Below are positions 9,369 to 48,847 of a stretch of 64,000 bases of DNA, in pieces; within the stretch, counting starts at the first letter, position 1; every line of letters starts with the position of its first letter. The position numbers and the translations under genes are program-made. Source of the stretch: Salinivirga cyanobacteriivorans (lineage in GTDB: Bacteria > Bacteroidota > Bacteroidia > Bacteroidales > Salinivirgaceae); the NCBI RefSeq assembly GCF_001443605.1, contig NZ_CP013118.1, positions 2,243,501-2,307,500 of the forward strand. The letters run 5' to 3'. The notes beneath the pieces are model-generated. The model saw only the letters and a program-made list of their open reading frames with translations, did no database searches and was not told the DNA's origin.

Positions 9369-10727
9369 TTAATTTTCGGGATTATAATTATCAACTGCAG
9401 AAGCCAGTCTTGCTACAACATTATCAGCCGCAGATTCAAGGAGGTAACTTACTTTGGTAATCTTATCTGAAGCATTCATTAATCTCCTTAATTGCCTGAT
9501 ACGGTATGTGTTGTCATGTATAACATCTTCATCACTATCATATTTACGCGATTTCCAATATCCGGGCACCAATTTCTTCAGGTCTCCCTGATAGCGGCCA
9601 AATTCTACAGCATCAGTGCGCGTATCCTTAAGGTCGTCTGTAATCATAAGGCTTGCTGTAGCTGTAGACAACATTTTATAGGACATCCGTACAGAGGCAC
9701 TGTTAGTTTTATTGTAGACTTTATAGGTAGTTTTGCTAAAAGTTTCCTTTTTACGTTCAACCCCTTCATCATCTTTATATACATGTACTTCTTTGATATA
9801 ACCACGCTCGGTTTTCACATGTGTTTTACCTTCAATTTTTTTTACATCATTTATCTGCACATGCAAAACAGCCTCTACACCGGCCAGGTTGAGTGCTTTC
9901 AAATTATAAGATCCGTCACGATTTTTAATTTTATTTTGGCTGAAAGCCGATTTATCAACAATATTGATAAAAGGATTTTGCTGTTCAGCAATGGCATTGG
10001 TAATTTCAGACAGAGAAACAGGATTTGTCCGTCTTGCAGTACCACTAATTTCTAGGGCGGGAATCAATATATCGATTGTGCCTTTTTCTCTTGCTTCCTG
10101 TTGTAAATTGGTAGCATCTTTATATCCACCTGTCTCTTGCGCAATTTGCTCAAAAAGATAGTAGGCGGAACGATACTGACCCTCATCAAAGTAGTTATTG
10201 GCTTTACGGTAATGTGGTTCATAAACTGCTGTTTCTAGTTTACGGCGTGCATCTTTATAGTTTGGCGAAATTCGTACAATTTCTTTAAAAATTGTTGCAG
10301 CCTTATCGAACTCCTCCCGATCAAGGTGTTCAGAAGCCTCTATATATTTATCGGCAATAAAGGTATTTTTTACTTCATCGTAATAGGCATGATAGCGGTC
10401 AGGAAAAGTCAGATCAACTCCAACTCCAGCTACCTTATCATGGTAATTTTTGGCGGCTTCATAGCTATAAACGGCTTCCTGTGTTTCATTTTGTTGATAG
10501 TCTTTTTCAAACTCAGTCAACAAATCGTTTAACACTAATTGTCCATTTTTTTGCAACCCAAGCTTGGTCTCTACTTTGGTACGTTTTCGTTTTACCGACT
10601 CATAATAAAACTCTGCGGCATCTTTATATAAACCGGCTTCATCAAATTTTTCAGCTTTTTTTGCATAGCGATGTGCAGCACAACCAGTAAGCAATACAAG
10701 GGTAAGGGAAAGTAAGAATAATCGCAT
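9369..10727 (-). CDS. TPR-containing lipoprotein
   Basis: A 452-residue lipoprotein with lipobox LTGC (Cys16). The N-terminal ~210 residues are helical with TPR-like repeats (AGLYKDAAEFYYESV; REEFDKAATIFKEIV; EGQYRSAYYLFEQIA). The C-terminal half is rich in beta strand and unrecognised. It is the first gene of a two-gene operon with the LPP20 lipoprotein. The start region and upstream promoter sequence have a degenerate second copy at 14208-14345, showing that a paralogue once existed nearby. TTG-N18-TATATTTA upstream is a plausible promoter and is conserved in that second copy. Confidence 0.75.
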   Translation of the reverse strand: MRLFLLSLTLVLLTGCAAHRYAKKAEKFDEAGLYKDAAEFYYESVKRKRTKVETKLGLQKNGQLVLNDLLTEFEKDYQQNETQEAVYSYEAAKNYHDKVAGVGVDLTFPDRYHAYYDEVKNTFIADKYIEASEHLDREEFDKAATIFKEIVRISPNYKDARRKLETAVYEPHYRKANNYFDEGQYRSAYYLFEQIAQETGGYKDATNLQQEAREKGTIDILIPALEISGTARRTNPVSLSEITNAIAEQQNPFINIVDKSAFSQNKIKNRDGSYNLKALNLAGVEAVLHVQINDVKKIEGKTHVKTERGYIKEVHVYKDDEGVERKKETFSKTTYKVYNKTNSASVRMSYKMLSTATASLMITDDLKDTRTDAVEFGRYQGDLKKLVPGYWKSRKYDSDEDVIHDNTYRIRQLRRLMNASDKITKVSYLLESAADNVVARLASAVDNYNPEN

Positions 10728-10906
10728 TTTTGTGTACTTTAGAAATTGCGAGGTAAATATACAAATTTCAATGACTTGTCAACGACGTCTTAAAATCATT
10801 CAAAAGATAGAAGGTGCAGAAACCTGGGTTTTTATAAATCAATTAAACCAACAATGGACTCCAGCTAAATAGCAGAAAACAAAAATTCAGTTTATTTGTA
10901 TTTAAG

Positions 10907-10977: not shown

Positions 10978-13359
10978 ATGAGAAAAATACAAATATTCGT
11001 TATCTTTTTTGTGATCCTAAATTTGCCTCTATTGGCTCAACATAATGATGCAAATATTTTCGGTGATGTGCAATCTGGGGGTAAACACATTCCTTTCGCA
11101 ACCATTTTTATTGAGGGGACAACCATTGGGACTTCTACCGATGAAACCGGCCATTACATGTTCATTGATTTGCCCGAAGGTGAGCATACGATTGTAGCCA
11201 AAGCCCTGGGTTATAAGCCACAAAAGAAAAACGTGGTAATAGAGCACGAAAAGACCCTTGAAGTAAATTTTAATTTGGCAAGCGATGTAATGGCTCTGGA
11301 TGAAGTGGTGGTTACCGGAACCAAAACATTTAAACGAAGCACAGAATCACCGGTCATCGTAAATTTGCTGGACAAAAAATCCATTGAAGCCGTGCAGGCA
11401 TGTAATATTTCAGAGGGATTGAATTTCCAACCTGGTTTGCGGGTGGAAACCGATTGCCAAACCTGCAACTATTCGCAGTTGCGCATGAATGGTTTGGGAG
11501 GCGGTTATTCCCAAATCCTTATTAATGGCAGACCCATTTTCAGTCCATTAATTGGACTGTACGGAATGGAGCAAATTCCGGCCAACATGGTCAACCGCAT
11601 TGAAGTCGTTCGTGGGGGCGGTTCGGCACTCTACGGATCCAGTGCCATTGGTGGTACGGTCAATATCATCACACATATTCCCAAAAGCAACAATTACGAT
11701 ATGAGCCTAACCAGCCACAGCATTAACGGGCGGGTCATGGATAATGTCATTAGCGGCAACATCAACATGGTAACACGGAAACGCAATGCAGGAGCTGTAT
11801 TGTTTGTAAACCGACGTTACCGCGAGGCTTATGATCATCAGGGCATTACACTGCGCGAAAATGGCAACCACTTTAAGGAACGCGATGGATATTCAGAACT
11901 TCCGGAATTACGCAACAATTCATTTGGTGGCAATTTGTTTTACCGCCCCACACCCAATCAAAAACTGGAATTAAATTTTACCAGTCTTCATGAGTACCGT
12001 TACGGTGGTGAACTTACCGACAAGCCGGCTCACCTGGCCATGCAGTCGGAAGAACGCGTGCATGATATTTTGATGGGTGGCCTCGATTACCAAATCAATT
12101 TCAATGAAGATAACACCTCATTCATAGCATATTTTGCCGGACAAAATACCGACCGTGACCACTACACCGGACTTTTTCCCGTACGTGAAGAATATACTTC
12201 GGATATAAATTTCGAAGAAGCGCTGAACACTCACTTAAGCGAGCCTCCCTACGGCACTACAGATAACCTTACTCTGCAGGGAGGTACACAGTTAAACCAT
12301 CGTCTGTCCGATTTTCTGGGAGGAAGCAATGTATTAACCATCGGGGCAGAATATAAGTACGATGATGTGATCGATTCCATTCCGGCTTATGAATATGGAA
12401 CCAACCAACAGACCCAAAATGTAGCTGGTTTTATACAGAACGACTGGAAAATCAATAAAGATTTGACATTACTGATCGGATTGCGCGCCGACAAGCACAA
12501 CCTGGTAAATGATGTGATATTTAGTCCCCGGATCTCTGCATTGTATAAATTCAGGGATTACACACAATTTCGCCTCACCTGGGGAACAGGTTTTCGCGCA
12601 CCTCAGGCTTTTGACACGGACATGCACATTGCCTTTGCCGGTGGTGGTATATCACGGGTACAACTTGATCCCAATTTAAAAGAAGAGCGCTCCAACAGCA
12701 TCAGTGGCTCGGTGAATTTCGATTACCCTACTGCCCTCTACATTGTAGGATTTACTGTGGAAGGTTTTTACACCAAACTCAATGATGCTTTCTATTTGCA
12801 ACCGGTAGGAGCCGATGCTTTGGGAGCGGTTTTTGAAAAAAGAAACGGACCTGGTGCTACCGTTCAGGGAGCCACAATTGAATTGCGTGCGAATTATAAC
12901 AAAATGGCACAAATTGAAGGAGGCTTTACGCTTCAAACCAGCTTGCACGAAAAAGCCGTGGAGAATATCGGAGGGTTACCCGCCAGGAAGCAATTTCTAC
13001 GCACACCGGAACATTATGGTTATATGATACTGACCCTCACAACCAATAATCAATGGAGTGGATCAATAAGTGGTGTTTATACCGGGGAAATGTTGCACGC
13101 GAAATTCTCACCCGATGAGAATATAATGCCAAATGAGTACCGCACATCCGATCCATTTGTAGAATTGAACGTTAAACTGGGATATACCGTGCCTTTTGAA
13201 ATGCTCGATAGCGGCCTGGAACTTTTTGGTGGCATCAAAAACTTCACCAACATGTTTCAGGATGATTTTGACAACTATCGCAATCGCGATAGCAATTATA
13301 TGTACGGACCAGCCCAACCACGCACATTTTATGTGGGTGTTAGGTTAAAATCATTGTAA
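10978..13359 (+). CDS. TonB-dependent outer-membrane receptor 1 (metal or siderophore-type)
   Basis: A 793-residue TonB-dependent receptor. It has a Sec signal peptide (cleavage after LLAQ, ~21), a carboxypeptidase-D-like regulatory domain (residues 27-105), a plug domain (115-235; VVRGGGSALYGSSAIGG) and a 22-strand barrel ending in an aromatic-rich segment (FYVGVRLKSL). The plug carries a C-x2-C pair (Cys160, Cys163) plus Cys142, shared with the paralogue at 18403-20787. A DtxR-type regulator gene follows 65 bases later on the same strand, which points to an iron or manganese-related ligand. The ligand cannot be read from sequence alone. Confidence 0.88.
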   Translation: MRKIQIFVIFFVILNLPLLAQHNDANIFGDVQSGGKHIPFATIFIEGTTIGTSTDETGHYMFIDLPEGEHTIVAKALGYKPQKKNVVIEHEKTLEVNFNLASDVMALDEVVVTGTKTFKRSTESPVIVNLLDKKSIEAVQACNISEGLNFQPGLRVETDCQTCNYSQLRMNGLGGGYSQILINGRPIFSPLIGLYGMEQIPANMVNRIEVVRGGGSALYGSSAIGGTVNIITHIPKSNNYDMSLTSHSINGRVMDNVISGNINMVTRKRNAGAVLFVNRRYREAYDHQGITLRENGNHFKERDGYSELPELRNNSFGGNLFYRPTPNQKLELNFTSLHEYRYGGELTDKPAHLAMQSEERVHDILMGGLDYQINFNEDNTSFIAYFAGQNTDRDHYTGLFPVREEYTSDINFEEALNTHLSEPPYGTTDNLTLQGGTQLNHRLSDFLGGSNVLTIGAEYKYDDVIDSIPAYEYGTNQQTQNVAGFIQNDWKINKDLTLLIGLRADKHNLVNDVIFSPRISALYKFRDYTQFRLTWGTGFRAPQAFDTDMHIAFAGGGISRVQLDPNLKEERSNSISGSVNFDYPTALYIVGFTVEGFYTKLNDAFYLQPVGADALGAVFEKRNGPGATVQGATIELRANYNKMAQIEGGFTLQTSLHEKAVENIGGLPARKQFLRTPEHYGYMILTLTTNNQWSGSISGVYTGEMLHAKFSPDENIMPNEYRTSDPFVELNVKLGYTVPFEMLDSGLELFGGIKNFTNMFQDDFDNYRNRDSNYMYGPAQPRTFYVGVRLKSL

Positions 13360-13424
13360 TTTTCAATGTCATTGCATTAACGGAGACCTAAATCTTTTTT
13401 ATATTTAATAAAAACACTTTAACT

Positions 13425-14087
13425 ATGTCCATTTCAACCGAAAACTTTGTTAAAGCCATATACAAACAAACTCAAGTGAGCGGAGGAGATACCAAACCCG
13501 GTACTCTGGCTAAATTGCTCAGTATAACCAATGCTGCAACTACAGATATGGCACGTAAACTCGCGGCCAAAAAACTGGTAAACTATACCAAATACAAGGA
13601 ACTCACACTCACAACAGAAGGCGAGAAAATGGCATTGAATGTGCTGCGCAAACATCGTTTGTGGGAGACCTTTTTACACAAAACACTGAATTTATCTCTG
13701 CATGAAATTCATCGTGAAGCTGAAATGCTGGAACACCTCACCTCCGATTTTCTGGCCGAAAAAATCAGCAATTACGTGGGCAACCCTGAATATGACCCCC
13801 ACGGCGATCCTATCCCTAATATGCACGGCATAATTACTGATCGCCACAACACCATTTTATTATCACAGGCAAGGGAGCACACAGATTATAAAATCACAAG
13901 GCTTTTCAGCTCCGATGAGGACTTTTTCAATTTCTGCAAAGAAAACAACCTGATGATTGGAATGGATGTCAGGGTGGTGAAGCAATATGAATCGAATAAA
14001 ATGACCGAAATAGCTGTCAACAATAAACATGTATTGCTGAATGCGGATTTTACGAATGTGATTTATGTAAAACCTGTGCTCACATAA
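13425..14087 (+). CDS. DtxR/MntR-type metal-dependent repressor
   Basis: A 220-residue regulator: winged helix (about residues 5-65), then the metal-binding dimerisation domain with HRLWETFL (His77, Glu81) and HEIHREAEMLEH (His96, Glu100, His104), and an SH3/FeoA-like C-terminal domain (about 150-218). The family binds Fe(II) or Mn(II) and then represses uptake genes. It follows the TonB receptor 1 gene, a common arrangement for a regulator and its target. The last ~21 codons are duplicated at 16321-16383, so the gene's 3' end is the left border of a 2.1 kb insertion; the gene itself is intact. Metal preference is uncertain. Confidence 0.88.
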   Translation: MSISTENFVKAIYKQTQVSGGDTKPGTLAKLLSITNAATTDMARKLAAKKLVNYTKYKELTLTTEGEKMALNVLRKHRLWETFLHKTLNLSLHEIHREAEMLEHLTSDFLAEKISNYVGNPEYDPHGDPIPNMHGIITDRHNTILLSQAREHTDYKITRLFSSDEDFFNFCKENNLMIGMDVRVVKQYESNKMTEIAVNNKHVLLNADFTNVIYVKPVLT

Positions 14088-14207
14088 AAAAAAAGTCTTC
14101 TATTTCCTTCATAAATTAAAAGCGATTATTTTTGCTCGAAATTATCAACGATATGTTATCCTTTCAACAAAGTGTTGCTGAAATTATTTATGATTATCCG
14201 GAGTTAA
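14025..14207. repeat. Direct repeat, left copy (dtxR end to start of RIC-like gene)
   Basis: This ~183 bp segment covers the last 21 codons of the DtxR gene, the intergenic spacer and the first ~18 codons of the RIC-like gene, and it recurs at 16321-16504 with few differences (a 6-base block at 14031-14036, one indel in the A-run near 14089, one substitution near 14163). The left copy carries the intact DtxR end and a truncated RIC start. Confidence 0.92.
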
Positions 14208-14293
14208 AAATTTTTAGCTTTTTTTTTTGCGTAACGACTGGCAGCACAACCTGTAAGCAAAACCAGGGCAATAGGAAATAGGAGTAATCTCAT
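14208..14293 (-). pseudogene. Truncated N-terminus of a paralogue of the TPR lipoprotein
   Basis: Read on the minus strand from ATG 14293, the sequence encodes MRLLLFPIALVLLTGCAA followed by SRYAKKKAKNF, closely matching the first ~29 residues (signal peptide and lipobox LTGC) of the lipoprotein at 9369-10727, and the DNA upstream (14294-14345) matches that gene's promoter region too. The frame is cut off at the junction with the 183 bp direct repeat. It is a remnant left by the rearrangement that created the repeat. Confidence 0.75.
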
Positions 14294-14545
14294 ATTAGTT
14301 TCGTTTATGAATTGCTCGGTAAACATACAAATTTCAATTACCCATTGACATTTGCCATCCATCGACTACAATGGATTTGCCTTGAATAAAACAATATTCC
14401 AGGGAGAATTTGACTAACAAACAATTGTGCAGGATAGAATTTTTTCTGTAAGGTATAATAGAATAATTCTGGCAAAAAAATTGTCTATAATAACCTCAAA
14501 TGCCTAAATTTATAATAACCAACTAAAACCAACCAACAACAAGCA

Positions 14546-16285
14546 TTGAGAAAGAGAAAAATCATACTGTTATTCATCCTGTTCAGTACGCTAACTTCTG
14601 TGGCCCAGAAAGAGGTACACATCAGTCTCAATGCAAAAAATCAACCTGTTCAGAAAGTTCTTGAGCTAATAAAAAGAGAAAGTAACTACCGTCTAATCAT
14701 ACCCAATCAATTTTATAACCCCGACAGCCTGGTTACTATTACCTACCAGTACCAAAAAAGCAGCCGAATAATCAAAAAGTTATTCAATGGCAAAGCACAG
14801 ACAAAAATAGTCGGGAATAGAATTATTGTCCTACCAAAGTATCATAGCAATAAACCAGATTCTTCTGATCATTCTTACCTGGAAGTATCGGGAATTGTAA
14901 TCGATCAAAAAAGCAGAGAAACATTGCGTGAAGCAACTATCTACCAAATCGAAAAATCAAAAATCACACTTACTGATAAAGCAGGAGGTTTTGTGCTGCC
15001 TGGGACCAGGAACAAAAAGCATTTGTTACTATACATTGCCAGGCAAATGTACTCTGATACTATCATTCAGATTGATCCCAAGAACAGAGAAAATTTAGTC
15101 ATACCGCTGCAACATAAGGAAACTCCTTACTTTGCTGATGAAAACCTCATGTTCGACAGCCCAATAGAGCAGTTGATGCCCAAATTCGTCTCAAAAAAGA
15201 TTTTAAAAAAACAGATCACCATTGCTAAAAACCTGCAAAATGTAAATGAAAAAAAAATTGCTCAAATCTCATTCCTACCCTTCTTAAGCACAAACGGACA
15301 TAAAAATGGTATTACAGAAAATAACTTTTCTTTGAATATTATCGGAGGGTTTAACGGATCAATTAGTGGCATTGAAATAGGCGGAGGAGCTAACCTAACC
15401 TATCGAAATACAAGCGGGCTACAAGCTGCCGGCTTATTCAACTGGGTTAACCGGGGTGTATCCGGTTTGCAAATGGCCGGGGGATTCAACAATACATATG
15501 GAGATTTTCAGGGAATGCAACTTGGTGGAATTTTTAACTACAACAGAGAGCAACTACATGGTTTTCAGCTGGCCGGTATCGGCAATATAGTTAGGTCTGA
15601 TATAACCGGAATGCAAATGAGCTCGGCATATAACCATGGTTGCAGAACTGTTAAAGGAATCCAACTAGCCGGCATATTTAACTCCACCATTCACACCCTA
15701 AAAGGCTTGCAGTTGGGAATGGTCAATTATGCGGGAAACAATAAAGGATTTCAACTTGGACTTCTAAACATTTCGGATTCAACCAGCGGTGTTTCTATTG
15801 GTTTATTCAATTACAGTAAAACAGGTTACCGATCGTTTGCGCTATCGGCCAATGAAATATTCCCGGTTAATGTTGCTTTCCGCTCCGGAAGCACCCATTT
15901 CTACACCCTTTTCAAATTCAGTATTGGAAAACCGGAAAAAACTTATCTCTCCATGGGCACAGGCATGGGCACACAAATAACTTTTCGCAAATCCTGGATT
16001 GCATCAATTGATGCTACAGCCAACATGCTGCATGAAGATGGCACAAAAGACTGGGGCGACCTACTTTGGTACCGTTTGGGAATAGATGGCGGACACCAAA
16101 TTTCGGAAAAATTTACATTGGCTGCCGGGCCTGCCGTTAACTTGCTTCAAGTGAGAAAAACCTCTATGAATGGCATTCAGGATGCCACACTTCTTAATCT
16201 GAAACCAATCAATGAAAAGGAAATAGATCCGTTTTTAATTCAACTATGGATTGGCGGTCAGATAGAACTTCAATACCGCTTTTAA
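14546..16285 (+). CDS. Secreted protein with STN domain and surface repeats (LA_2272-like)
   Basis: A 579-residue exported protein, TTG start, signal peptide ending SVAQ (~21). Residues 23-110 resemble the STN secretin/TonB short N-terminal domain (LNAKNQPVQKVLELIKRES), residues 113-190 a carboxypeptidase-D-like beta sandwich, and residues about 265-430 hold roughly ten tandem ~16-residue repeats of the form GxQxAGIFN (GLQAAGLFN, GMQLGGIFN, GIQLAGIFN, GLQLGMVNY), as in LA_2272-type surface repeat proteins. The last ~140 residues look like beta strands of an outer-membrane barrel. It occupies the 2.1 kb insertion between the two direct repeats, interrupting the dtxR-RIC order. Function unknown; surface location is inferred. 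Confidence 0.8.
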   Translation: MRKRKIILLFILFSTLTSVAQKEVHISLNAKNQPVQKVLELIKRESNYRLIIPNQFYNPDSLVTITYQYQKSSRIIKKLFNGKAQTKIVGNRIIVLPKYHSNKPDSSDHSYLEVSGIVIDQKSRETLREATIYQIEKSKITLTDKAGGFVLPGTRNKKHLLLYIARQMYSDTIIQIDPKNRENLVIPLQHKETPYFADENLMFDSPIEQLMPKFVSKKILKKQITIAKNLQNVNEKKIAQISFLPFLSTNGHKNGITENNFSLNIIGGFNGSISGIEIGGGANLTYRNTSGLQAAGLFNWVNRGVSGLQMAGGFNNTYGDFQGMQLGGIFNYNREQLHGFQLAGIGNIVRSDITGMQMSSAYNHGCRTVKGIQLAGIFNSTIHTLKGLQLGMVNYAGNNKGFQLGLLNISDSTSGVSIGLFNYSKTGYRSFALSANEIFPVNVAFRSGSTHFYTLFKFSIGKPEKTYLSMGTGMGTQITFRKSWIASIDATANMLHEDGTKDWGDLLWYRLGIDGGHQISEKFTLAAGPAVNLLQVRKTSMNGIQDATLLNLKPINEKEIDPFLIQLWIGGQIELQYRF

Positions 16286-16320
16286 AGTATTGAGAGGAAT
16301 CTGAAATTACCATAAAAACA

Positions 16321-16504
16321 AAACATTTGCTACTGAATGCGGATTTTACGAATGTGATTTATGTAAAACCTGTGCTCACATAAAACAAAAAGTCTTCTAT
16401 TTCCTTCATAAATTAAAAGCGATTATTTTTGCTCGAAATTATCAACGATATGTTATCCTATCAACAAAGTGTTGCTGAAATTATTTATGATTATCCGGAG
16501 TTAA
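16321..16504. repeat. Direct repeat, right copy
   Basis: Second copy of the segment at 14025-14207. Here the RIC-like gene start is intact while the DtxR end is only a fragment, the mirror image of the left copy. Confidence 0.92.
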
Positions 16505-17148
16505 TTCTGGTACTGGAAAGGCTTAATATTTTTCCGGGCTTTGGCGATAAAACTATTGAAGAAATCGCCAAAGAAAAAGAGATCAATGCTGATTTATTAA
16601 TGGTTTTGCTCAGAATGCAACTTGACCCGGAACACAGTCCCAATATTGACTTACCTGTGAGCACAATTCAATCTATTGTAGAATATTTATCAGTATCTCA
16701 CGATTACTATACACGGGAGCTCTATCCGGTAATTGCTGAAAACATTGCGTTACTTGCCGAAAAAAACGATCATACTTCAATACAAATGGTCAAGCAATTT
16801 TTTGCTGAATACAGAAATGAGGCTGACCGGCATTTTGAATATGAAAACGATATAGCTTTTCCATATATTCTAAGCCTTTATTTGGAGAATCAGAAACTCC
16901 CTGATGAAATTTCTGCAGAATACTCTGTGGACACCTATCGCGAGAACCATGACAATATTGAAGAAAAACTCGATGATTTGAAGCAACTACTTATCAAATA
17001 CCTCCCTTTTGATGAAGATTATCGTATTCGCCGCAACATTATTCTTACACTCGACCGGCTCGATGCTGATATAAAAGCGCACGCAAAAATTGAAGATGAG
17101 ATTTTAATACCATTAGTGCGCCAACTTGAAGAAAAATTAACTAAATGA
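16450..17148 (+). CDS. RIC-like hemerythrin-domain protein
   Basis: A 232-residue protein related to YtfE/ScdA, which repair iron-sulfur centres damaged by nitric oxide or oxidants. An N-terminal ~75-residue ScdA_N-like part is followed by a hemerythrin fold with the likely diiron ligands in SHDYYTRE, ADRHFEYENDIAFP, NHDNIEEKL and KAHAKIEDEILIP. The N-terminal cysteines of classical ScdA proteins are absent. I chose ATG 16450; a TTG at 16429 in the same frame is possible. It overlaps the next regulator gene by 4 bases. A truncated copy of its first codons lies at 14157-14207 because of the direct repeat. Confidence 0.82.
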   Translation: MLSYQQSVAEIIYDYPELILVLERLNIFPGFGDKTIEEIAKEKEINADLLMVLLRMQLDPEHSPNIDLPVSTIQSIVEYLSVSHDYYTRELYPVIAENIALLAEKNDHTSIQMVKQFFAEYRNEADRHFEYENDIAFPYILSLYLENQKLPDEISAEYSVDTYRENHDNIEEKLDDLKQLLIKYLPFDEDYRIRRNIILTLDRLDADIKAHAKIEDEILIPLVRQLEEKLTK

Positions 17149-17759
17149 CTCAAAACTGCAAAATACTCATAATTGAGCCGTCAGACATTATCAGGCAGGG
17201 ATTAGCAGAGATATTGCGTTCAATATCATGCATTGAAAAAATTGACCAAATAGAAAGCTGGGAAACATTTTTAGCTCAAAAAAATGAAAAAAACTACGAC
17301 CTGGTGTTGCTCAACCCCCTGGGTTGCTGCCGTGGACCTCGCTTACGTCCGCAAGTATTGGAAAAATTCGAATCCACCATACTTATCGGCATCATAACTA
17401 CAATATACCATCGAAATTTGCACCAGGATTATCAGGACGTTATTTATTTGAGCGATATGGAAGCTGAAGTAAGAAGTCTAGTAGTACGTTACCTTACTCA
17501 GAAAACAGAAAAGCCACCAGTCTACCAACTACTCTCGGAGCGCGAAATTGACGTACTAAAACAAATGGCCCTTGGACTATCCAATAAAGAAATTGCAGAA
17601 ACACTTCACATTAGTACGCACACGGTTATATCGCATCGAAAAAACATCAGCAATAAGCTGGGAATCAGAACAACCTCAGGCATGGCCATCTATGCTGTAA
17701 CAGCAAAACTCATTGATGCATCTGACATTTTAAACGACATCCCTAAAAATAGGGATTGA
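17145..17759 (+). CDS. LuxR-type regulator with atypical receiver (CC motif)
   Basis: A 204-residue regulator with an N-terminal response-regulator-like fold (residues 4-115) and a C-terminal LuxR/GerE helix-turn-helix (LSEREIDVLKQMALG ... SNKEIAETLHISTHTVISHR). In the receiver, the position of the phospho-accepting Asp is occupied by Asn in LVLLNPLGCCRG, immediately followed by a Cys pair, so normal phosphorylation is unlikely. The start codon overlaps the RIC-like stop by 4 bases (ATGA type), so the two are translated together. Control of iron-centre or nitrosative stress genes, with the cysteines as sensor, is an inference. Confidence 0.8.
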   Translation: MTQNCKILIIEPSDIIRQGLAEILRSISCIEKIDQIESWETFLAQKNEKNYDLVLLNPLGCCRGPRLRPQVLEKFESTILIGIITTIYHRNLHQDYQDVIYLSDMEAEVRSLVVRYLTQKTEKPPVYQLLSEREIDVLKQMALGLSNKEIAETLHISTHTVISHRKNISNKLGIRTTSGMAIYAVTAKLIDASDILNDIPKNRD

Positions 17760-17951: not shown

Positions 17952-18293
17952 GTGTTTAAGAGGCTTTTATCCATAATATTAGTTTTTACAGCAATCTTTA
18001 TAATTGCCAATAAAGCCATTTATTTGCACGTACATGAGGCAAACGATGGTACTTTAATAGTACATGCACATCCTTTCAATAAATCTGCTGACAATGACCC
18101 AATAAAAAAACACCACCATAACTTATTAGAATATGTATTATTGAGTCATTTCGACCTGCTATTCATAGCATCTTTATTATTTACTCTGGCGGGAAAATTT
18201 GCTCCAGAAATAATTCTGGGCATTAAACGAAAAAAATGTTCTGGTCATATTTTCCTCACCTTCAAGCCCCTTCGGGCACCTCCTTTAAAATAA
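17952..18293 (+). CDS. Small His-rich membrane protein before TonB receptor 2
   Basis: A 113-residue protein starting at GTG 17952. It has an N-terminal hydrophobic segment (residues 4-24), a short exported loop rich in histidine (LHVHEANDGTLIVHAHPF, then KKHHHNLLEY) and a second hydrophobic segment (about 62-82). The His cluster suggests metal binding on the outer face of the inner membrane. It lies 109 bases before the receptor gene on the same strand, in the same place as the Cys-rich exported protein before receptor 3 (35942-36442). I do not recognise the family; a metal-chaperone or sensing role is inference. Confidence 0.65.
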   Translation: MFKRLLSIILVFTAIFIIANKAIYLHVHEANDGTLIVHAHPFNKSADNDPIKKHHHNLLEYVLLSHFDLLFIASLLFTLAGKFAPEIILGIKRKKCSGHIFLTFKPLRAPPLK

Positions 18294-18402
18294 AACCCTG
18301 GCAATACCAGCCAACAACCCTTTTCCCAACTATTTTCGTTTTAATTACACCCATTAATTTATATTAATGTGGGCGACACATAAGATAAAAAAACTCACAA
18401 CA

Positions 18403-20787
18403 ATGAATTTCAAATTAGCAACAATATATATCCTTCTGTTTAGTATTTCGGTATCGGCATTAGCTCAAAAAGAATCCCGCACCGATGCCAATCTTGTAGG
18501 TCATGTAACATGCTGTGGCGAGCACATTCCCTTTGCCACCATACTAATTGAAGGCACTACCATAGGAACCACCACAGATGAAACCGGCCATTACCGAATA
18601 ATGAATATGCCTGTAGGGGAATTTACAGTTACTGCTCAGGCATTGGGCTATGCCCCTAAATCTGTACAAATAAAAATGGAGGCAGGCCAAACAAAAGAAA
18701 TTAAATTTGATTTGAAAAAAGACGTACTGAATCTTGAGGAGGTTGTTGTAACCGGAGACCGAAACAAAACCAACCGACGAGATGCCTCCGTTATAGTCTC
18801 AACCATTTCCCCCAAAGTATTTGAATTTGCTCAGGCCGCTACATTAAGCGAAGGGCTGGACTTTTCGCCCGGATTACGCCTGGAAAATAATTGTCAAAAT
18901 TGCGGATTTACCCAGGTTCGCATGAACGGGATGGAAGGTCCCTATTCACAGATATTGATTAACAGCCGACCTATTTTTAGTGGTTTGGCAGGAGTATATG
19001 GCCTTGAATTGATTCCTGAGAATATGATTGAACGGGTTGAAGTTGTACGGGGCGGTGGTTCTGCGCTTTATGGAAGCAATGCCATTGCAGGTACCATCAA
19101 TCTGATTTTGAAAGATCCTATTACCAACTCTTACGAAATGGATATCAGCCGCGGCAGTATTGGTGCAGGACTCGAAGATGCCAACCCATCATCAGATTTT
19201 ACAGCAAAACTCAACACATCACTCATCTCCTCCGACAGTAAAACCGGTATGGCTTTATATGGATTTTATAGAAAAAGAGCTCCCTTTGATGCCAATGGAG
19301 ATGATTTCTCCGAACTTAGTGAAATAAATAACACGACAATTGGTAGTCGCATGTTTCACCGTTTTACCAATCGAAGTCGTGTATCTATGGATGTTTTTCA
19401 TATACACGAGGAACGCCGGGGTGGCAACAAATTCCAATACCCGATTCATGAATCTGTAATTGCTGAAGCGGTAGAACACAGAATTACAACCGGTGCCCTG
19501 ACTTATGACCAGTTCTTCAGGGAGCACGATAAACTATCCATGTTTGTTTCCGGGCAAAAAGTCGACCGTGATTCATACTACGGAGCCGAAAAATCGCTCA
19601 AAGATTATGGATTAACTACTGACTTTTCTTATCATGCCGGGGCACAATATCATTTACACCTCAATCTTGCTGAAATTACATTAGGATTAGAAAACCAGGG
19701 TGCCTGGCTAAAAGACCGCAAATTGGGTTACCCGGATTTGGATAACATCCAATTGAATGTGGAAGGAACGGACACTACTTTTCAGGTACCACATACCGAA
19801 AACGTAACCATTGCAGACCAGGAGACCAATACTTTCAGTGCGTTTGGCCAGTATGATATTACCTGGGAAAAGCTCAAGATAACAGCAGGTTTACGTTTTG
19901 ATCATTACCAGGTTAACGATTATATTTCAAATGACGATAAGTCAGGAAGTGTGCTAAGCCCGCGCCTCACAATTAAGTATGATCTTTTCAATTACCTGCA
20001 GGCCCGCGCAAGCTATAGCCAGGGCTACAGGGCACCACAAATCTATGATGAAGACCTGCATATTGAAACTTCTACGGCACGTAAGGTGCTTCACGAAAAT
20101 GACCCCGATTTAAAACAAGAGACCAGTCATAGTATTATGGCTTCTCTTGATTTTAATAAAAAAATCGGGAATGCATATGTAGGAGTACTCGCAGAAGGTT
20201 TTTATACCAAACTTATGGATGCTTTTTCCAATGAATTCTCTGATCCAGACTCAACCGGAACCGTAACCTATACACGGGTAAATGCTGACGGTGGAGCTAC
20301 AGTAGCAGGTATCAACATAGAGGTTAACGTTGTTCCGACAGAAAAACTGATGTTCAAAGGCAGCTTCACTTACCAAAGCAGCAAATACGAAAATGCGCAA
20401 GAATTTGGAGAAACATCTTTTTTACGCACTCCCAGCGATTACGGATACCTAGCGATTGATTATCAACCTATTAAAAAACTTGGCTTTTCGTTGACCGGAA
20501 ACTATACTGGCTCAATGTTGGTTCCATACTTTGGCAATACCCTTCCAGCAAATTCAGAAGGAGAATTGCGGGAAAGCAATCCTTTTTATGACATCGGTAT
20601 AAAAGCCCGCTTCAACTGGAAACTTAATGGTGCTACCATGCAATTCTATGGTGGGGTAAAAAACATATTTAATTCCTATCAGGACGACTTTGATTATGGC
20701 CACGACCGTGACCCGGGCTATATTTATGGGCCGGGGTTACCAAGAATGATTTATGCAGGAATTAAAATAAGCAACCTTATTCATTAA
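18403..20787 (+). CDS. TonB-dependent outer-membrane receptor 2 (paralogue of receptor 1)
   Basis: A 794-residue TonB-dependent receptor. I chose ATG 18403 because it opens directly into a signal peptide (MNFKLATIYILLFSISVSA); an in-frame ATG at 18367 would add 12 charged residues. Domain order is signal peptide, carboxypeptidase-D-like domain (about 30-105; IPFATILIEGTTIGTTTDE), plug (115-235; VVRGGGSALYGSNAIAG) and barrel. It shares with receptor 1 the C-x2-C in the plug (NNCQNCGF) and much of the regulatory domain and plug. An additional CC is present in the N-terminal domain (HVTCCGEH). A good terminator follows at 20813-20843. Ligand is unknown, probably a metal complex. Confidence 0.87.
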   Translation: MNFKLATIYILLFSISVSALAQKESRTDANLVGHVTCCGEHIPFATILIEGTTIGTTTDETGHYRIMNMPVGEFTVTAQALGYAPKSVQIKMEAGQTKEIKFDLKKDVLNLEEVVVTGDRNKTNRRDASVIVSTISPKVFEFAQAATLSEGLDFSPGLRLENNCQNCGFTQVRMNGMEGPYSQILINSRPIFSGLAGVYGLELIPENMIERVEVVRGGGSALYGSNAIAGTINLILKDPITNSYEMDISRGSIGAGLEDANPSSDFTAKLNTSLISSDSKTGMALYGFYRKRAPFDANGDDFSELSEINNTTIGSRMFHRFTNRSRVSMDVFHIHEERRGGNKFQYPIHESVIAEAVEHRITTGALTYDQFFREHDKLSMFVSGQKVDRDSYYGAEKSLKDYGLTTDFSYHAGAQYHLHLNLAEITLGLENQGAWLKDRKLGYPDLDNIQLNVEGTDTTFQVPHTENVTIADQETNTFSAFGQYDITWEKLKITAGLRFDHYQVNDYISNDDKSGSVLSPRLTIKYDLFNYLQARASYSQGYRAPQIYDEDLHIETSTARKVLHENDPDLKQETSHSIMASLDFNKKIGNAYVGVLAEGFYTKLMDAFSNEFSDPDSTGTVTYTRVNADGGATVAGINIEVNVVPTEKLMFKGSFTYQSSKYENAQEFGETSFLRTPSDYGYLAIDYQPIKKLGFSLTGNYTGSMLVPYFGNTLPANSEGELRESNPFYDIGIKARFNWKLNGATMQFYGGVKNIFNSYQDDFDYGHDRDPGYIYGPGLPRMIYAGIKISNLIH

Positions 20788-21539: not shown

Positions 21540-21610
21540 GTGTATTTTAATTTTCTAATATTATGCCTGTTCTTTTATAGCCCTTCTTTTTTCCATCCAA
21601 TTATAAATAG

Positions 21611-23120
21611 TTCTACTTTAACAGATTAAAAAAAACGAAGTTATTTTAAGTGAATAACAGTGATAATCCGTTAACATTTAGTATATTGCGCATGTTAAAA
21701 AAATGTAATTTTATTTGCAATGGGTAACGAGCGAATCACTTAAAAAAAGATTATAACAATGGTAAAACACTGCTTGCGGTTAACGACCGTCTTGAAGTGT
21801 ATTTGTCTGAATATGAGTATTTTTTCAAAAATAAAACAAAGACAAACTTCGATAAAGCCTCTCAATATGTCGAAGGACTTGCATTAAGCGATTTGAAAAA
21901 CATAGAACGCATAAGTGAAACATTGAATGCCAACTATCATCAGATGCAGCATTTCATAACAGAATCTAACTGGGATGCTCGGGCTGTCATCGATCAAACT
22001 GCAAAAAATGTAGACCAAGCATTGCCCAATCGGAAGTTAACAGGACTACTCATCGATGAAAGTGGTTGGGTTAAAAAGGGAAAGAAAAGCGTTGGTGTTG
22101 ATCATCAGTATTGTGGGAATGTAGGAAAAACAGCAAACTCACAGGTAGCCGTTTTTGGCTGCCTTTGTAATGACAAATACGCCTCGTTGGTCGATACCAG
22201 GCTTTATTTACCAAAATCATGGATCGATGATCAGGGTAGATGTGAAGCTGCAGGTATACCCCGTGAAGATAGGATTTTCCGCACAAAACCAGAGTTGGCA
22301 ACAGAAATAGTAAAGCATCAACTTGAAATGGGTATATCATTTGATTACGTTGGAGCGGATGGCCTATATGGAAATGACATTGTATTTACCCGTTCTGTGG
22401 CTGATTTGGGCTTAATTTATATGCTTGATATTCATAGTAATCAAAAGATATATTTAGAAGAGCCAGAACTTTATTTGCCCGAACGCAAGAGTAATCGGGG
22501 GCGCGCCCCAAAAAAGCTAAAAGCAAGTACATCAGCAGTTAATGCCGACACCTACATTAAAACCCTGTCCGCAAAGGATTGGAAGAAATTAAATATTCGC
22601 GATTCTGCAAAAGGCAAACTCAAGGGGCTCTTTCATTTCAAGACTGTTTACATTTGGGACAAAGCCTCCAATGCCGTTGAAAAACGTTTATTGATTGTTT
22701 CGAAAAGAAAAACAAATGATTGCGTAGAGACTAAATATTCATTCACAAATGCCGAACTTGTCCAGTACACCGAACAAGCACTGGCATATATGCAGGCACA
22801 GCGTTTTTTTATAGAGCACAGTTTCAAAGAACAAAAGCAAATATTGGGGATGGACCATTTTCAGACTCGTAAATGGAAATCATGGTATCATCAAGTTGCA
22901 TTAAATATGATTGTAGGCAGTTTTATGTTAAAGGAGAAAATTTTAAATCAGGACCAGATTCCATTGCTTTCTGCAAGGGACATCATGGATTTTTTGGTAT
23001 ATAAGTTTTACCGTGAAATGACAGATGAGCGTATGTTGGAAAAATTGGAACATCGACACAAAAAAAGGCAACGGGATATAGATTACTGTTATTCAAAACA
23101 ATAAATGTGTTAAAGTAGAA
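21611..23120 (+). mobile_element. IS701-family insertion sequence, copy 1
   Basis: A 1510 bp element with perfect 13 bp terminal inverted repeats (TTCTACTTTAACA at 21611-21623 and its complement at 23108-23120), carrying one transposase gene. It is almost identical to the element at 47338-48847 in the same orientation. Its flanks read ATAG on the left and CTAT on the right, so the 4 bp YTAG-type target duplication seen around copy 2 is not present here. Confidence 0.93.
21797..23104 (+). CDS. IS701-family transposase (copy 1)
   Basis: A 435-residue DDE transposase. The conserved LLIDESGWVKKGKKSVGV (first Asp), the YVGADGLYG motif (second Asp) and the C-terminal QAQRFFIEHSFKEQKQ (catalytic Glu) are all present, as is the typical HYQVAL-like YHQVALNM segment. 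The frame opens upstream of GTG 21797 without an ATG, so the true start may be somewhat earlier (a CTG exists at 21770). Differences from copy 2 are few: Cys/Gly after KTND, Gln/His in the LNxDQIP motif and Ile/Val in LLxVSKRK. Confidence 0.92.
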   Translation: MYLSEYEYFFKNKTKTNFDKASQYVEGLALSDLKNIERISETLNANYHQMQHFITESNWDARAVIDQTAKNVDQALPNRKLTGLLIDESGWVKKGKKSVGVDHQYCGNVGKTANSQVAVFGCLCNDKYASLVDTRLYLPKSWIDDQGRCEAAGIPREDRIFRTKPELATEIVKHQLEMGISFDYVGADGLYGNDIVFTRSVADLGLIYMLDIHSNQKIYLEEPELYLPERKSNRGRAPKKLKASTSAVNADTYIKTLSAKDWKKLNIRDSAKGKLKGLFHFKTVYIWDKASNAVEKRLLIVSKRKTNDCVETKYSFTNAELVQYTEQALAYMQAQRFFIEHSFKEQKQILGMDHFQTRKWKSWYHQVALNMIVGSFMLKEKILNQDQIPLLSARDIMDFLVYKFYREMTDERMLEKLEHRHKKRQRDIDYCYSKQ

Positions 23121-46972: not shown

Positions 46973-47337
46973 TTAATTTTTGATCATAAAAAATTATATA
47001 CAGCAAAACAGCCTTTATTGAACAATACAAAAAACAGCGTCAGATTGGCTCAAAAAAAAGTAATAAAATGCGGCTTTAGGTAAAGGTGTCTGCATATCAG
47101 TGTGTTAGTGCGATAAGTATAGGGTGTTTTTAGGTTGCGTTTTTCATATTTAGCTTGCCAACTACCGGATAAATTGTAAGCAACCGGACTTTTCAAATTA
47201 TTTTGTAGGGTATGGGTAGCTGTCACAAATGCACAGAGGGTGTACCCAAAAATGAGAACTGTATCCCACCTATCAATTATTTTCATTTGCCTTATGGGTA
47301 GGTGGGCATGTTTTGCTATTTTTGTAGCAATTTTTAG

Positions 47338-48847
47338 TTCTACTTTAACAGATTAAAAAAAACGAAGTTTTTTTAAGTGAATAACAGTGATAATCCGTTA
47401 ACATTTAGCATATTGCGCATGTTAAAAAAATGTAATTTTATTTGCAATGGGTAACGAGCGAATCACTTAAAAAAAGATTATAACAATGGTAAAACACTGC
47501 TTGCGGTTAACGACCGTCTTGAAGTGTATTTGTCTGAATATGAGTATTTTTTCAAAAATAAAACAAAGACAAACTTCGATAAAGCCTCTCAATATGTCGA
47601 AGGACTTGCATTAAGCGATTTGAAAAACATAGAACGCATAAGTGAAACATTGAATGCCAACTATCATCAGATGCAGCATTTCATAACAGAATCTAACTGG
47701 GATGCTCGGGCTGTCATCGATCAAACTGCAAAAAATGTAGACCAAGCATTGCCCAATCGGAAGTTAACAGGACTACTCATCGATGAAAGTGGTTGGGTTA
47801 AAAAGGGAAAGAAAAGCGTTGGTGTTGATCATCAGTATTGTGGGAATGTAGGAAAAACAGCAAACTCACAGGTAGCCGTTTTTGGCTGCCTTTGTAATGA
47901 CAAATACGCCTCGTTGGTCGATACCAGGCTTTATTTACCAAAATCATGGATCGATGATCAGGGTAGATGTGAAGCTGCAGGTATACCCCGTGAAGATAGG
48001 ATTTTCCGCACAAAACCAGAGTTGGCAACAGAAATAGTAAAGCATCAACTTGAAATGGGTATATCATTTGATTACGTTGGAGCGGATGGCCTATATGGAA
48101 ATGACATTGTATTTACCCGTTCTGTGGCTGATTTGGGCTTAATTTATATGCTTGATATTCATAGTAATCAAAAGATATATTTAGAAGAGCCGGAACTTTA
48201 TTTGCCCGAACGCAAGAGTAATCGGGGGCGCGCCCCAAAAAAGCTAAAAGCAAGTACATCAGCAGTTAATGCCGACACCTACATTAAAACCCTGTCCGCA
48301 AAGGATTGGAAGAAATTAAATATTCGCGATTCTGCAAAAGGCAAACTCAAGGGGCTCTTTCATTTCAAGACTGTTTACATTTGGGACAAAGCCTCCAATG
48401 CCGTTGAAAAACGTTTATTGGTTGTTTCGAAAAGAAAAACAAATGATGGCGTAGAGACTAAATATTCATTCACAAATGCCGAACTTGTCCAGTACACCGA
48501 ACAAGCACTGGCATATATGCAGGCGCAGCGTTTTTTTATAGAGCACAGTTTCAAAGAACAAAAGCAAATATTGGGGATGGACCATTTTCAGACTCGTAAA
48601 TGGAAATCATGGTATCATCAAGTTGCATTAAATATGATTGTAGGCAGTTTTATGTTAAAGGAGAAAATTTTAAATCATGACCAGATTCCATTGCTTTCTG
48701 CAAGGGACATCATGGATTTTTTGGTATATAAGTTTTACCGTGAAATGACAGATGAGCGTATGTTGGAAAAATTGGAACATCGACACAAAAAAAGGCAACG
48801 GGATATAGATTACTGTTATTCAAAACAATAAATGTGTTAAAGTAGAA
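47338..48847 (+). mobile_element. IS701-family insertion sequence, copy 2
   Basis: A 1510 bp element with the same perfect 13 bp inverted repeats as copy 1 and a 4 bp TTAG target duplication on each side (47334-47337 and 48848-48851), the YTAG type known for IS701. It is in the same orientation as copy 1 with only a handful of base differences, so both arrived recently. Confidence 0.95.
47524..48831 (+). CDS. IS701-family transposase (copy 2)
   Basis: 435-residue DDE transposase, complete, differing from copy 1 by three visible residues (Val/Ile, Gly/Cys, His/Gln). The catalytic segments (LLIDESGW, GADGLYG, FIEHSFKEQKQ) are unchanged. GTG start, with the same uncertainty as copy 1. Confidence 0.93.
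   Translation: MYLSEYEYFFKNKTKTNFDKASQYVEGLALSDLKNIERISETLNANYHQMQHFITESNWDARAVIDQTAKNVDQALPNRKLTGLLIDESGWVKKGKKSVGVDHQYCGNVGKTANSQVAVFGCLCNDKYASLVDTRLYLPKSWIDDQGRCEAAGIPREDRIFRTKPELATEIVKHQLEMGISFDYVGADGLYGNDIVFTRSVADLGLIYMLDIHSNQKIYLEEPELYLPERKSNRGRAPKKLKASTSAVNADTYIKTLSAKDWKKLNIRDSAKGKLKGLFHFKTVYIWDKASNAVEKRLLVVSKRKTNDGVETKYSFTNAELVQYTEQALAYMQAQRFFIEHSFKEQKQILGMDHFQTRKWKSWYHQVALNMIVGSFMLKEKILNHDQIPLLSARDIMDFLVYKFYREMTDERMLEKLEHRHKKRQRDIDYCYSKQ

Follow-up and report, generated by a model that had tools for sequence, protein, structure and literature searches.

The window analysed here is a stretch of 64,000 nt from Salinivirga cyanobacteriivorans, whose genome (G000) is one contig of 4,812,386 bases; coordinates are positions in the window unless a genome contig or another locus is named. 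In it, a direct repeat encloses a 2.1 kb insert between a dtxR-type regulator gene and a RIC-like gene. The resident genes around the insert begin with a lipoprotein gene (lipo, 9369..10727, minus strand, 452 aa), followed by a TonB-dependent receptor gene on the 5' side of dtxR (10978..13359, plus strand; Pfam TonB barrel, plug and CarboxypepD_reg) and by the intact dtxR, which encodes a metal-dependent regulator (13425..14087, plus strand; Pfam Fe_dep_repr_C and Fe_dep_repress). Beyond the insert lie an intact RIC-like hemerythrin gene (16429..17148, plus strand; Pfam Hemerythrin, with NCBIfam FeS_repair_RIC under its cut-off) and the gene of a LuxR-type regulator, the conserved partner of RIC (17145..17759, plus strand; Pfam GerE). 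The insert itself carries one passenger gene (14546..16285, plus strand) for a 579 aa beta-barrel-type protein of the STN / CarboxypepD_reg / LA_2272-repeat kind, hereafter the STN gene.

An earlier note on this DNA described a 183 bp direct repeat around a 2.1 kb insert, and the alignment agrees: BLAST pairs 14025-14207 with 16321-16504 over 184 columns at 96.7% identity, and the 2113 bp between these wider edges (14208-16320) hold one large open reading frame (ORF), 14546-16285, of 579 aa. The note's account of the two neighbours is also seen in the ORFs and the alignment. In the left copy, dtxR is whole and RIC is cut 18 codons past its ATG at 14153, the truncated frame running on into the insert as a 53 aa open frame; in the right copy, the RIC ORF 16429-17148 is whole and dtxR is reduced to residues 191-220. 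The near-identical core of the repeat is 14037..14207 (171 bp, plus strand; dtxR end, spacer and 18 RIC codons) and 16333..16504 (172 bp, plus strand), which differ by one substitution and one 1-base indel (98.8% identity). The 12 bp to the left of this core, inside the 183 bp edges, belong to a diverged stretch, in which the right copy drops within a few bases to ~64% identity and reaches background by ~13992/16288. A repeat search of the whole window with a 60 bp minimum gave four families, two of which are parts of the dtxR-RIC repeat. The third is a lipo-related pair, 10656-10775 / 14222-14341 (78%), and the fourth consists of transposase-bearing copies 25.7 kb apart, namely two 1.5 kb copies at 21608-23120 and 47335-48847 that are 99.5% identical and each carry a transposase-looking ORF of 435 aa.

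The 2.1 kb insert is chimeric at both of its ends, a point absent from the earlier note. A genome search with 13900-16800 returned itself and one other place only, 14208-14341 aligning with 10644-10775 (77% identity, E 1.5e-20); 10644-10775 comprises the 5' end of lipo (9369-10727, minus strand) together with the block upstream of it. The left end of the insert, lipo' (14208..14341, minus strand), is thus a piece of a diverged second lipo: it keeps the first 28 codons and 2 further bases (14208-14293) together with a promoter-side block, reads MRLLLFPIALVLLTGCAASRYAKKKAKNF and is terminated by a stop at the joint. Along with the signal peptide it has the motif LTGC, which we take to be a lipobox. 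The 24-base block 5' of the lipo' start (14318-14341) matches at 22 of 24 positions and the homology ends sharply at 14341; beyond this point, the lipo spacer gave no alignment past chance, since the score was reached by 722 of 1000 shuffles for its first 140 nt, by 52 for its last 80 nt and by 104 for its full length. RIC meets lipo' at 14207/14208, where no extended homology is seen. At the other end, a diverged in-frame dtxR end leads into the host dtxR. In frame ahead of the right repeat copy stands SEITIKTKHLLL, which corresponds to TEIAVNNKHVLL of native dtxR, and sequence comparison identifies this piece, dtxR' (16303..16332, plus strand), as the end of a second dtxR: among 71,636 stop-free 12-mers of the window in six frames, just itself and native dtxR reach the dtxR' 12-mer score. 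The gene order of the insert, lipo'(-), STN gene(+) and dtxR' end, parallels the resident order lipo(-), TonB receptor(+), dtxR and RIC. The one same-genus lipo orthologue examined, in genome G001, is 46% identical and has a different upstream neighbour.

The insert ends and the repeat core differ in their divergence. Differing positions number 27 of 120 in the lipo' block and 12 of 33 in the dtxR' stretch, corresponding to 77% and 64% identity with the resident genes, and 2 of 172 columns in the core (repeat entered as 2/178 against lipo', p 6e-10). With counts rounded for the tests, lipo' compared with lipo has a synonymous divergence (dS) of 0.67 and a nonsynonymous divergence (dN) of 0.16 (p 0.0096); dtxR' compared with dtxR is saturated at synonymous sites, with dN 0.26 (p 0.0047); and the pooled pieces, 39 codons in all, have dS 1.00 and dN 0.18 (Fisher p 4e-5). 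The two end pieces thus probably diverged as parts of working genes and met the host junction only afterwards, the junction being duplicated at that time.

The 579 aa passenger protein has a CarboxypepD_reg-like domain under the Pfam cut-off and LA_2272 surface repeats over the NCBIfam cut-off. No STN domain was matched in the protein itself (Pfam, E 0.001), and its Pfam and NCBIfam matches include no transposase, integrase or relaxase. Ten Bacteroidales homologues are 27-32% identical to it; all four homologues scanned have an STN domain (E 0.05 or better, two over the Pfam cut-off), and the upstream ORFs of homologues are FecR by Pfam in six of six tested. Tblastn with nine ORFs from upstream of homologues, six of them FecR by Pfam, found no fecR remnant upstream of the STN gene (matches at E 5.1 and 8.9 only). 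These homologues suggest that the passenger may belong, as its outer-membrane partner, to a surface-signalling operon of the FecR type, with fecR missing here. The pattern TATTTTTG lies upstream of RIC in each repeat copy, at 14127..14134 in the left and 16424..16431 in the right (plus strand, pattern scan); we take it to be a candidate Bacteroidota -7 promoter box, which is weak evidence given 36 such matches on the plus strand of the window. RIC may have retained a promoter of its own, and the candidate promoter in the left copy might drive the passenger.

Relatives of these genes were sought in three overlapping samples, comprising 60 relatives, 393 genomes in the order and 395 in the phylum. 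With the own genome included, the STN protein was matched in 22 of the 60 relatives (E 0.001), 39 of the 393 order genomes (E 1e-25) and 9 of the 395 phylum genomes (E 1e-45); among the matches listed, none except itself is more than 42% identical. It had no match in five genus or family mates (G001-G005) and no relative in the searched genome-contig and viral-contig collections, and plasmid and phage records held distant matches only (six plasmid, two phage). For DtxR, 80 of 183 loci found were kept and their neighbours called at E 1e-5: no RIC, lipo or STN gene lies near dtxR in any of the 80. The earlier note had named the same repeat-insert-repeat arrangement, fixed in distant relatives, as what would speak against it, and these 80 loci show no instance. 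RIC relatives were matched in 157 of the 393 order genomes (own included); dtxR lies within 1.5 kb of RIC in none of the 29 non-own loci examined, and likewise in none of 20 longer stretches round the best of these. The dtxR of the window had no counterpart in either of two same-genus genomes searched. The dtxR-RIC junction is therefore peculiar to this lineage among the loci examined, and because the pairing is missing from these relatives, the lack of an empty site says nothing either way.

A LuxR-type regulator accompanies RIC (window 16429-17759) in 28 of the 29 Bacteroidales RIC loci examined, and the one locus without it ends at a contig edge. In 13 of the 80 DtxR loci (L056, L071, L079, L080, L082 and eight more), a TonB receptor that shares up to 71% identity with that of the window lies directly downstream of dtxR, opposite to the window, where the receptor is upstream (10978-14087 region); this suggests an older rearrangement of the dtxR locus. 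Locus L086 (8001-11555) has dtxR first, then a match to a 113 aa ORF and then a TonB receptor that shares 46% identity with the one at window 18367-20787, whereas in the window (17952-20787) RIC and LuxR precede the 113 aa ORF.

The favoured reading, to which we give an even chance, is that the STN gene was imported from a related species through one homologous joint at dtxR and one illegitimate joint in RIC, with duplication of the host segment between them. The incoming DNA, which we infer to have been linear and to have come from another species, would have carried lipo', the STN/barrel gene and the dtxR' end. Its dtxR' end would have crossed over with the resident dtxR ~50 bp before the dtxR stop, and its other end, broken inside lipo', would have been joined illegitimately to the resident RIC, 18 codons past its ATG. 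The ~172 bp of host DNA between the joints would thereby have been duplicated rather than deleted, leaving dtxR and RIC whole, probably via two sister chromosomes. With the illegitimate joint downstream of the homologous one, the segment between them comes to stand on both sides of the insert, and both copies are host-derived and identical at birth. This order of joints predicts a duplicated segment with surviving neighbours, which matches the pattern seen.

Composition is neutral in this respect: a foreign composition of the insert was rejected, its rank being ordinary (0.51 among 422 windows), and an ordinary composition is expected for a near relative and equally for native DNA. Several points weigh against import by mixed joining. 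The donor was not found across the searched relatives, order, phylum and contig collections. Support for dtxR' at the nucleotide level is marginal (its score was reached by 15 and by 61 of 1000 shuffles), and the dN/dS comparison has a base of 39 codons and reflects constraint partly from the resident genes' own lineages. The STN gene stops ~20 bases before the recognisable dtxR' end, which leaves too little room for a whole dtxR', so the donor would already have been rearranged. The route itself is rare and its classic products have deletions, according to the available text of PMC3240628 (this and the other papers cited here are represented by parts of their text). The ComEC family was found in the own genome and the same search matches 10 of 14 control genomes, so that it is weak evidence of competence.

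The genome also contains mobile elements with long direct repeats. Similar scars were sought in a local-repeat sample of 464 kb, made up of 20 stretches of 20 kb and the window; a 164 bp repeat at locus L208 was rejected as a second such scar, its insert being a multi-copy terminal-repeat element. Elements ending in CCTGTTTTGTGCA gave 78 genome matches at one mismatch or fewer (reversed pattern, 3), and a model of the IS1634 family of insertion sequences (IS) gave 30 genome matches, eight of them over the family cut-off and seven with a 496-codon open frame. These IS copies (L245-L252 on G000:C1, for example 2498115-2499527, 3453389-3454801 and 4332813-4334225) are ~1.62 kb long, 99.6-99.9% identical and end in CCTGTTTTCCGG. 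The direct repeats measured for six of the eight copies are 88, 91, 111, 143, 210 and 241 bp long and each 100% identical, so the IS moved recently. Among 21 loci of other elements, 12 have convincing end repeats (38-284 bp, 83-100% identity), 3 have both ends without a strong repeat and 6 have no usable ends. IS1634 and IS1549 make variable direct repeats of 8-514 bp, for which the available part of PMC2266710 gives no model as of 2008; a Geobacillus element of the family made a 6 bp repeat, as far as the available part of PMC8024623 tells.

Non-coding elements with CCTGTTTTGTGCA ends lie at L208 (13440-13877), at L229, L232, L233, L241 and L244 and at further G000 loci, and some of them stand in tandem arrays with a fixed spacing of ~700, 842 or 945 bp, as if repeat and element had been co-amplified. 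Two 492-codon open frames are weak IS1634-model matches (G000:C1:952697-952837 and 1971464-1971604); the first of them sits between CCTGTTTTGTGCA ends (L225) and could be part of an autonomous partner of the non-coding elements. At L197 (G000:C1:100001-120000), a ~550 bp repeat (16244-16802 / 19293-19831, 93%) lies in two adjacent large proteins that share this segment and differ after it, an arrangement that resembles displaced polymorphic-toxin modules.

The earlier note attributed the pattern either to a circular molecule carrying a fragment of the junction or to unequal tandem duplication, and excluded an IS for want of a transposase. Origin by recombination rather than by an IS is upheld, as no IS or MITE (miniature inverted-repeat transposable element) ends lie at the edges and the insert ends in dtxR homology; both mechanisms lose ground, because ends that diverged under constraint beside near-identical repeat copies weaken a simple circular integration and a simple tandem duplication alike. 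A circle carrying the donor's junction would have left one donor-derived copy, diverged to about the same degree as the other donor pieces in the manner of a single-crossover Campbell integration and so ~77%/64% similar; the copies are 98.8% identical, although gene conversion could hide such a difference. A version that allows for this, in which a donor lipo'-STN-dtxR'-RIC' was circularised by end joining (the seam being RIC/lipo'), entered by a single crossover at dtxR-RIC and had its copies evened by gene conversion, is unlikely without being negligible. It yields the same gene order, and 56 of the 60 clones from a conjugation experiment had a duplication, which the available text of PMC3240628 ascribes to a degraded, re-circularised plasmid; yet one copy should be the donor's, whose pieces differ by 23-36% while the core differs at 2 of 172, and conversion of the whole repeat is needed besides. 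Simple tandem duplication would predict an alignable spacer and neutral decay, neither of which is seen. An old tandem duplication of lipo-TonB-dtxR-RIC in the lineage, followed by loss of the TonB receptor and most of the dtxR in the second copy, by arrival of the STN gene and by recent gene conversion of the junction copies, appears rather improbable to us. The insert ends do follow the resident order lipo(-), TonB, dtxR, RIC, and RIC/lipo' would be the tandem-duplication joint. Against this stand a spacer beside lipo' that is not alignable beyond chance, the lack of a second TonB receptor piece in the ORF and repeat lists, and differences that are mostly synonymous in a lipo' that, truncated from the start, should decay neutrally; two ages of divergence also fit poorly, and at least three events are required.

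In a further reading, which is contradicted by the edges and highly improbable, an IS1634-family transposon or a related MITE made the repeat as its long target duplication and afterwards lost its ends. The 172 bp repeat fits the 38-284 bp range of target repeats in this genome; length alone is not diagnostic, so the edges had to be tested. No MITE-type end occurs at either edge of the insert, no terminal repeat lies near the edges at two mismatches or fewer, and the best match near each edge has 5 of 13 bases differing; a match as good as this occurs in about one in four random stretches of 46 nt (MITE ends; the IS ends were compared by eye). As no MITE-type ends were found abutting the direct repeats and the right copy is abutted by dtxR homology instead of a transposon end, the insert is not filed with the IS1634 or MITE elements. 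The earlier note's conclusion on this point stands on the missing terminal inverted repeats; its argument is not enough here, as the genome has many transposase-less elements with long direct repeats. A long shot is that a host process unlinked to transposon ends makes and fills long staggered breaks of tens to hundreds of bases, duplicating ~40-280 bp round captured DNA, so that the dtxR/RIC scar and the IS1634 and MITE repeats would share one repair. An assembly artefact is hardly credible: repeats can mislead assemblers, but the genome is a single 4.81 Mb contig, the insert matches only lipo elsewhere in it, the copies differ at two places, and diverged homologues at both ends are not expected of an artefact.

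For import by one homologous and one illegitimate joint, the closest known process is homology-facilitated illegitimate recombination (HFIR) of transformable bacteria, in which likewise one end is joined by homology and the other illegitimately and ~2 kb of foreign DNA is gained (available parts of PMC3240628 and PMC2884548). HFIR generally, though not absolutely, inserts DNA and deletes host DNA (PMC3240628, in part), whereas the window has ~172 bp duplicated and both neighbours whole; its homologous end is diverged (homeologous), and the case is known as a scar only. In HFIR the illegitimate joint usually has 3-10 bp of microhomology, and RecA dependence is an HFIR trait. Because the host segment is duplicated and not deleted, we describe the insert as HFIR-like in its working and do not class it with the classic HFIR products. 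In pneumococcal interchromatid integration and its merodiploids, too, host DNA is duplicated when two sister chromosomes take part in the pairing, but the duplications described in the available part of PMC3784515 span ~100-900 kb, with homology at both joints. When a degraded plasmid re-circularises and enters by a single crossover, the outcome is likewise an insert between duplicated sequences (109-950 bp in 14 sequenced clones); there the donor homology was cloned host sequence, according to the parts of PMC3240628 at hand, whereas in the window the donor pieces are diverged and the repeats are not. The displacement of effector-immunity modules of the Vibrio cholerae type VI secretion system, proposed to be HFIR-like, shares the single homologous anchor side and the remnants of displaced genes alongside; the resident effector is displaced there, and no duplicated junction is described in the available part of PMC5361080, whereas the window neighbours are whole. 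IS1634-family transposition resembles the window in that direct repeats of the same length range bound the insert (PMC2266710, in part) and such elements occur in this genome, and differs in that the insert studied here lacks both a transposase and terminal inverted repeats and has dtxR homology at one edge.

The recently active IS1634-family IS and the MITEs with 38-284 bp repeats, present in one genome, are material for a mechanism that lacked a model in 2008, as far as the available part of PMC2266710 goes; if host repair were shared, long target repeats of the IS1634 family would be a property of that repair and not of the transposase. The chromosome seems to have gained the STN gene by transfer, and the dtxR-RIC locus is an unusually readable scar of that event, not a new mobile element. 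Because the diverged donor ends are preserved along with both joints and both copies of the host segment, sequence alone is enough to argue what type each joint is. Excision by recombination between the 172 bp copies is plausible, and the arrangement predicts exact reversibility. The locus illustrates how a chromosome could acquire a gene at the junction next to a regulator gene with neither neighbour lost.

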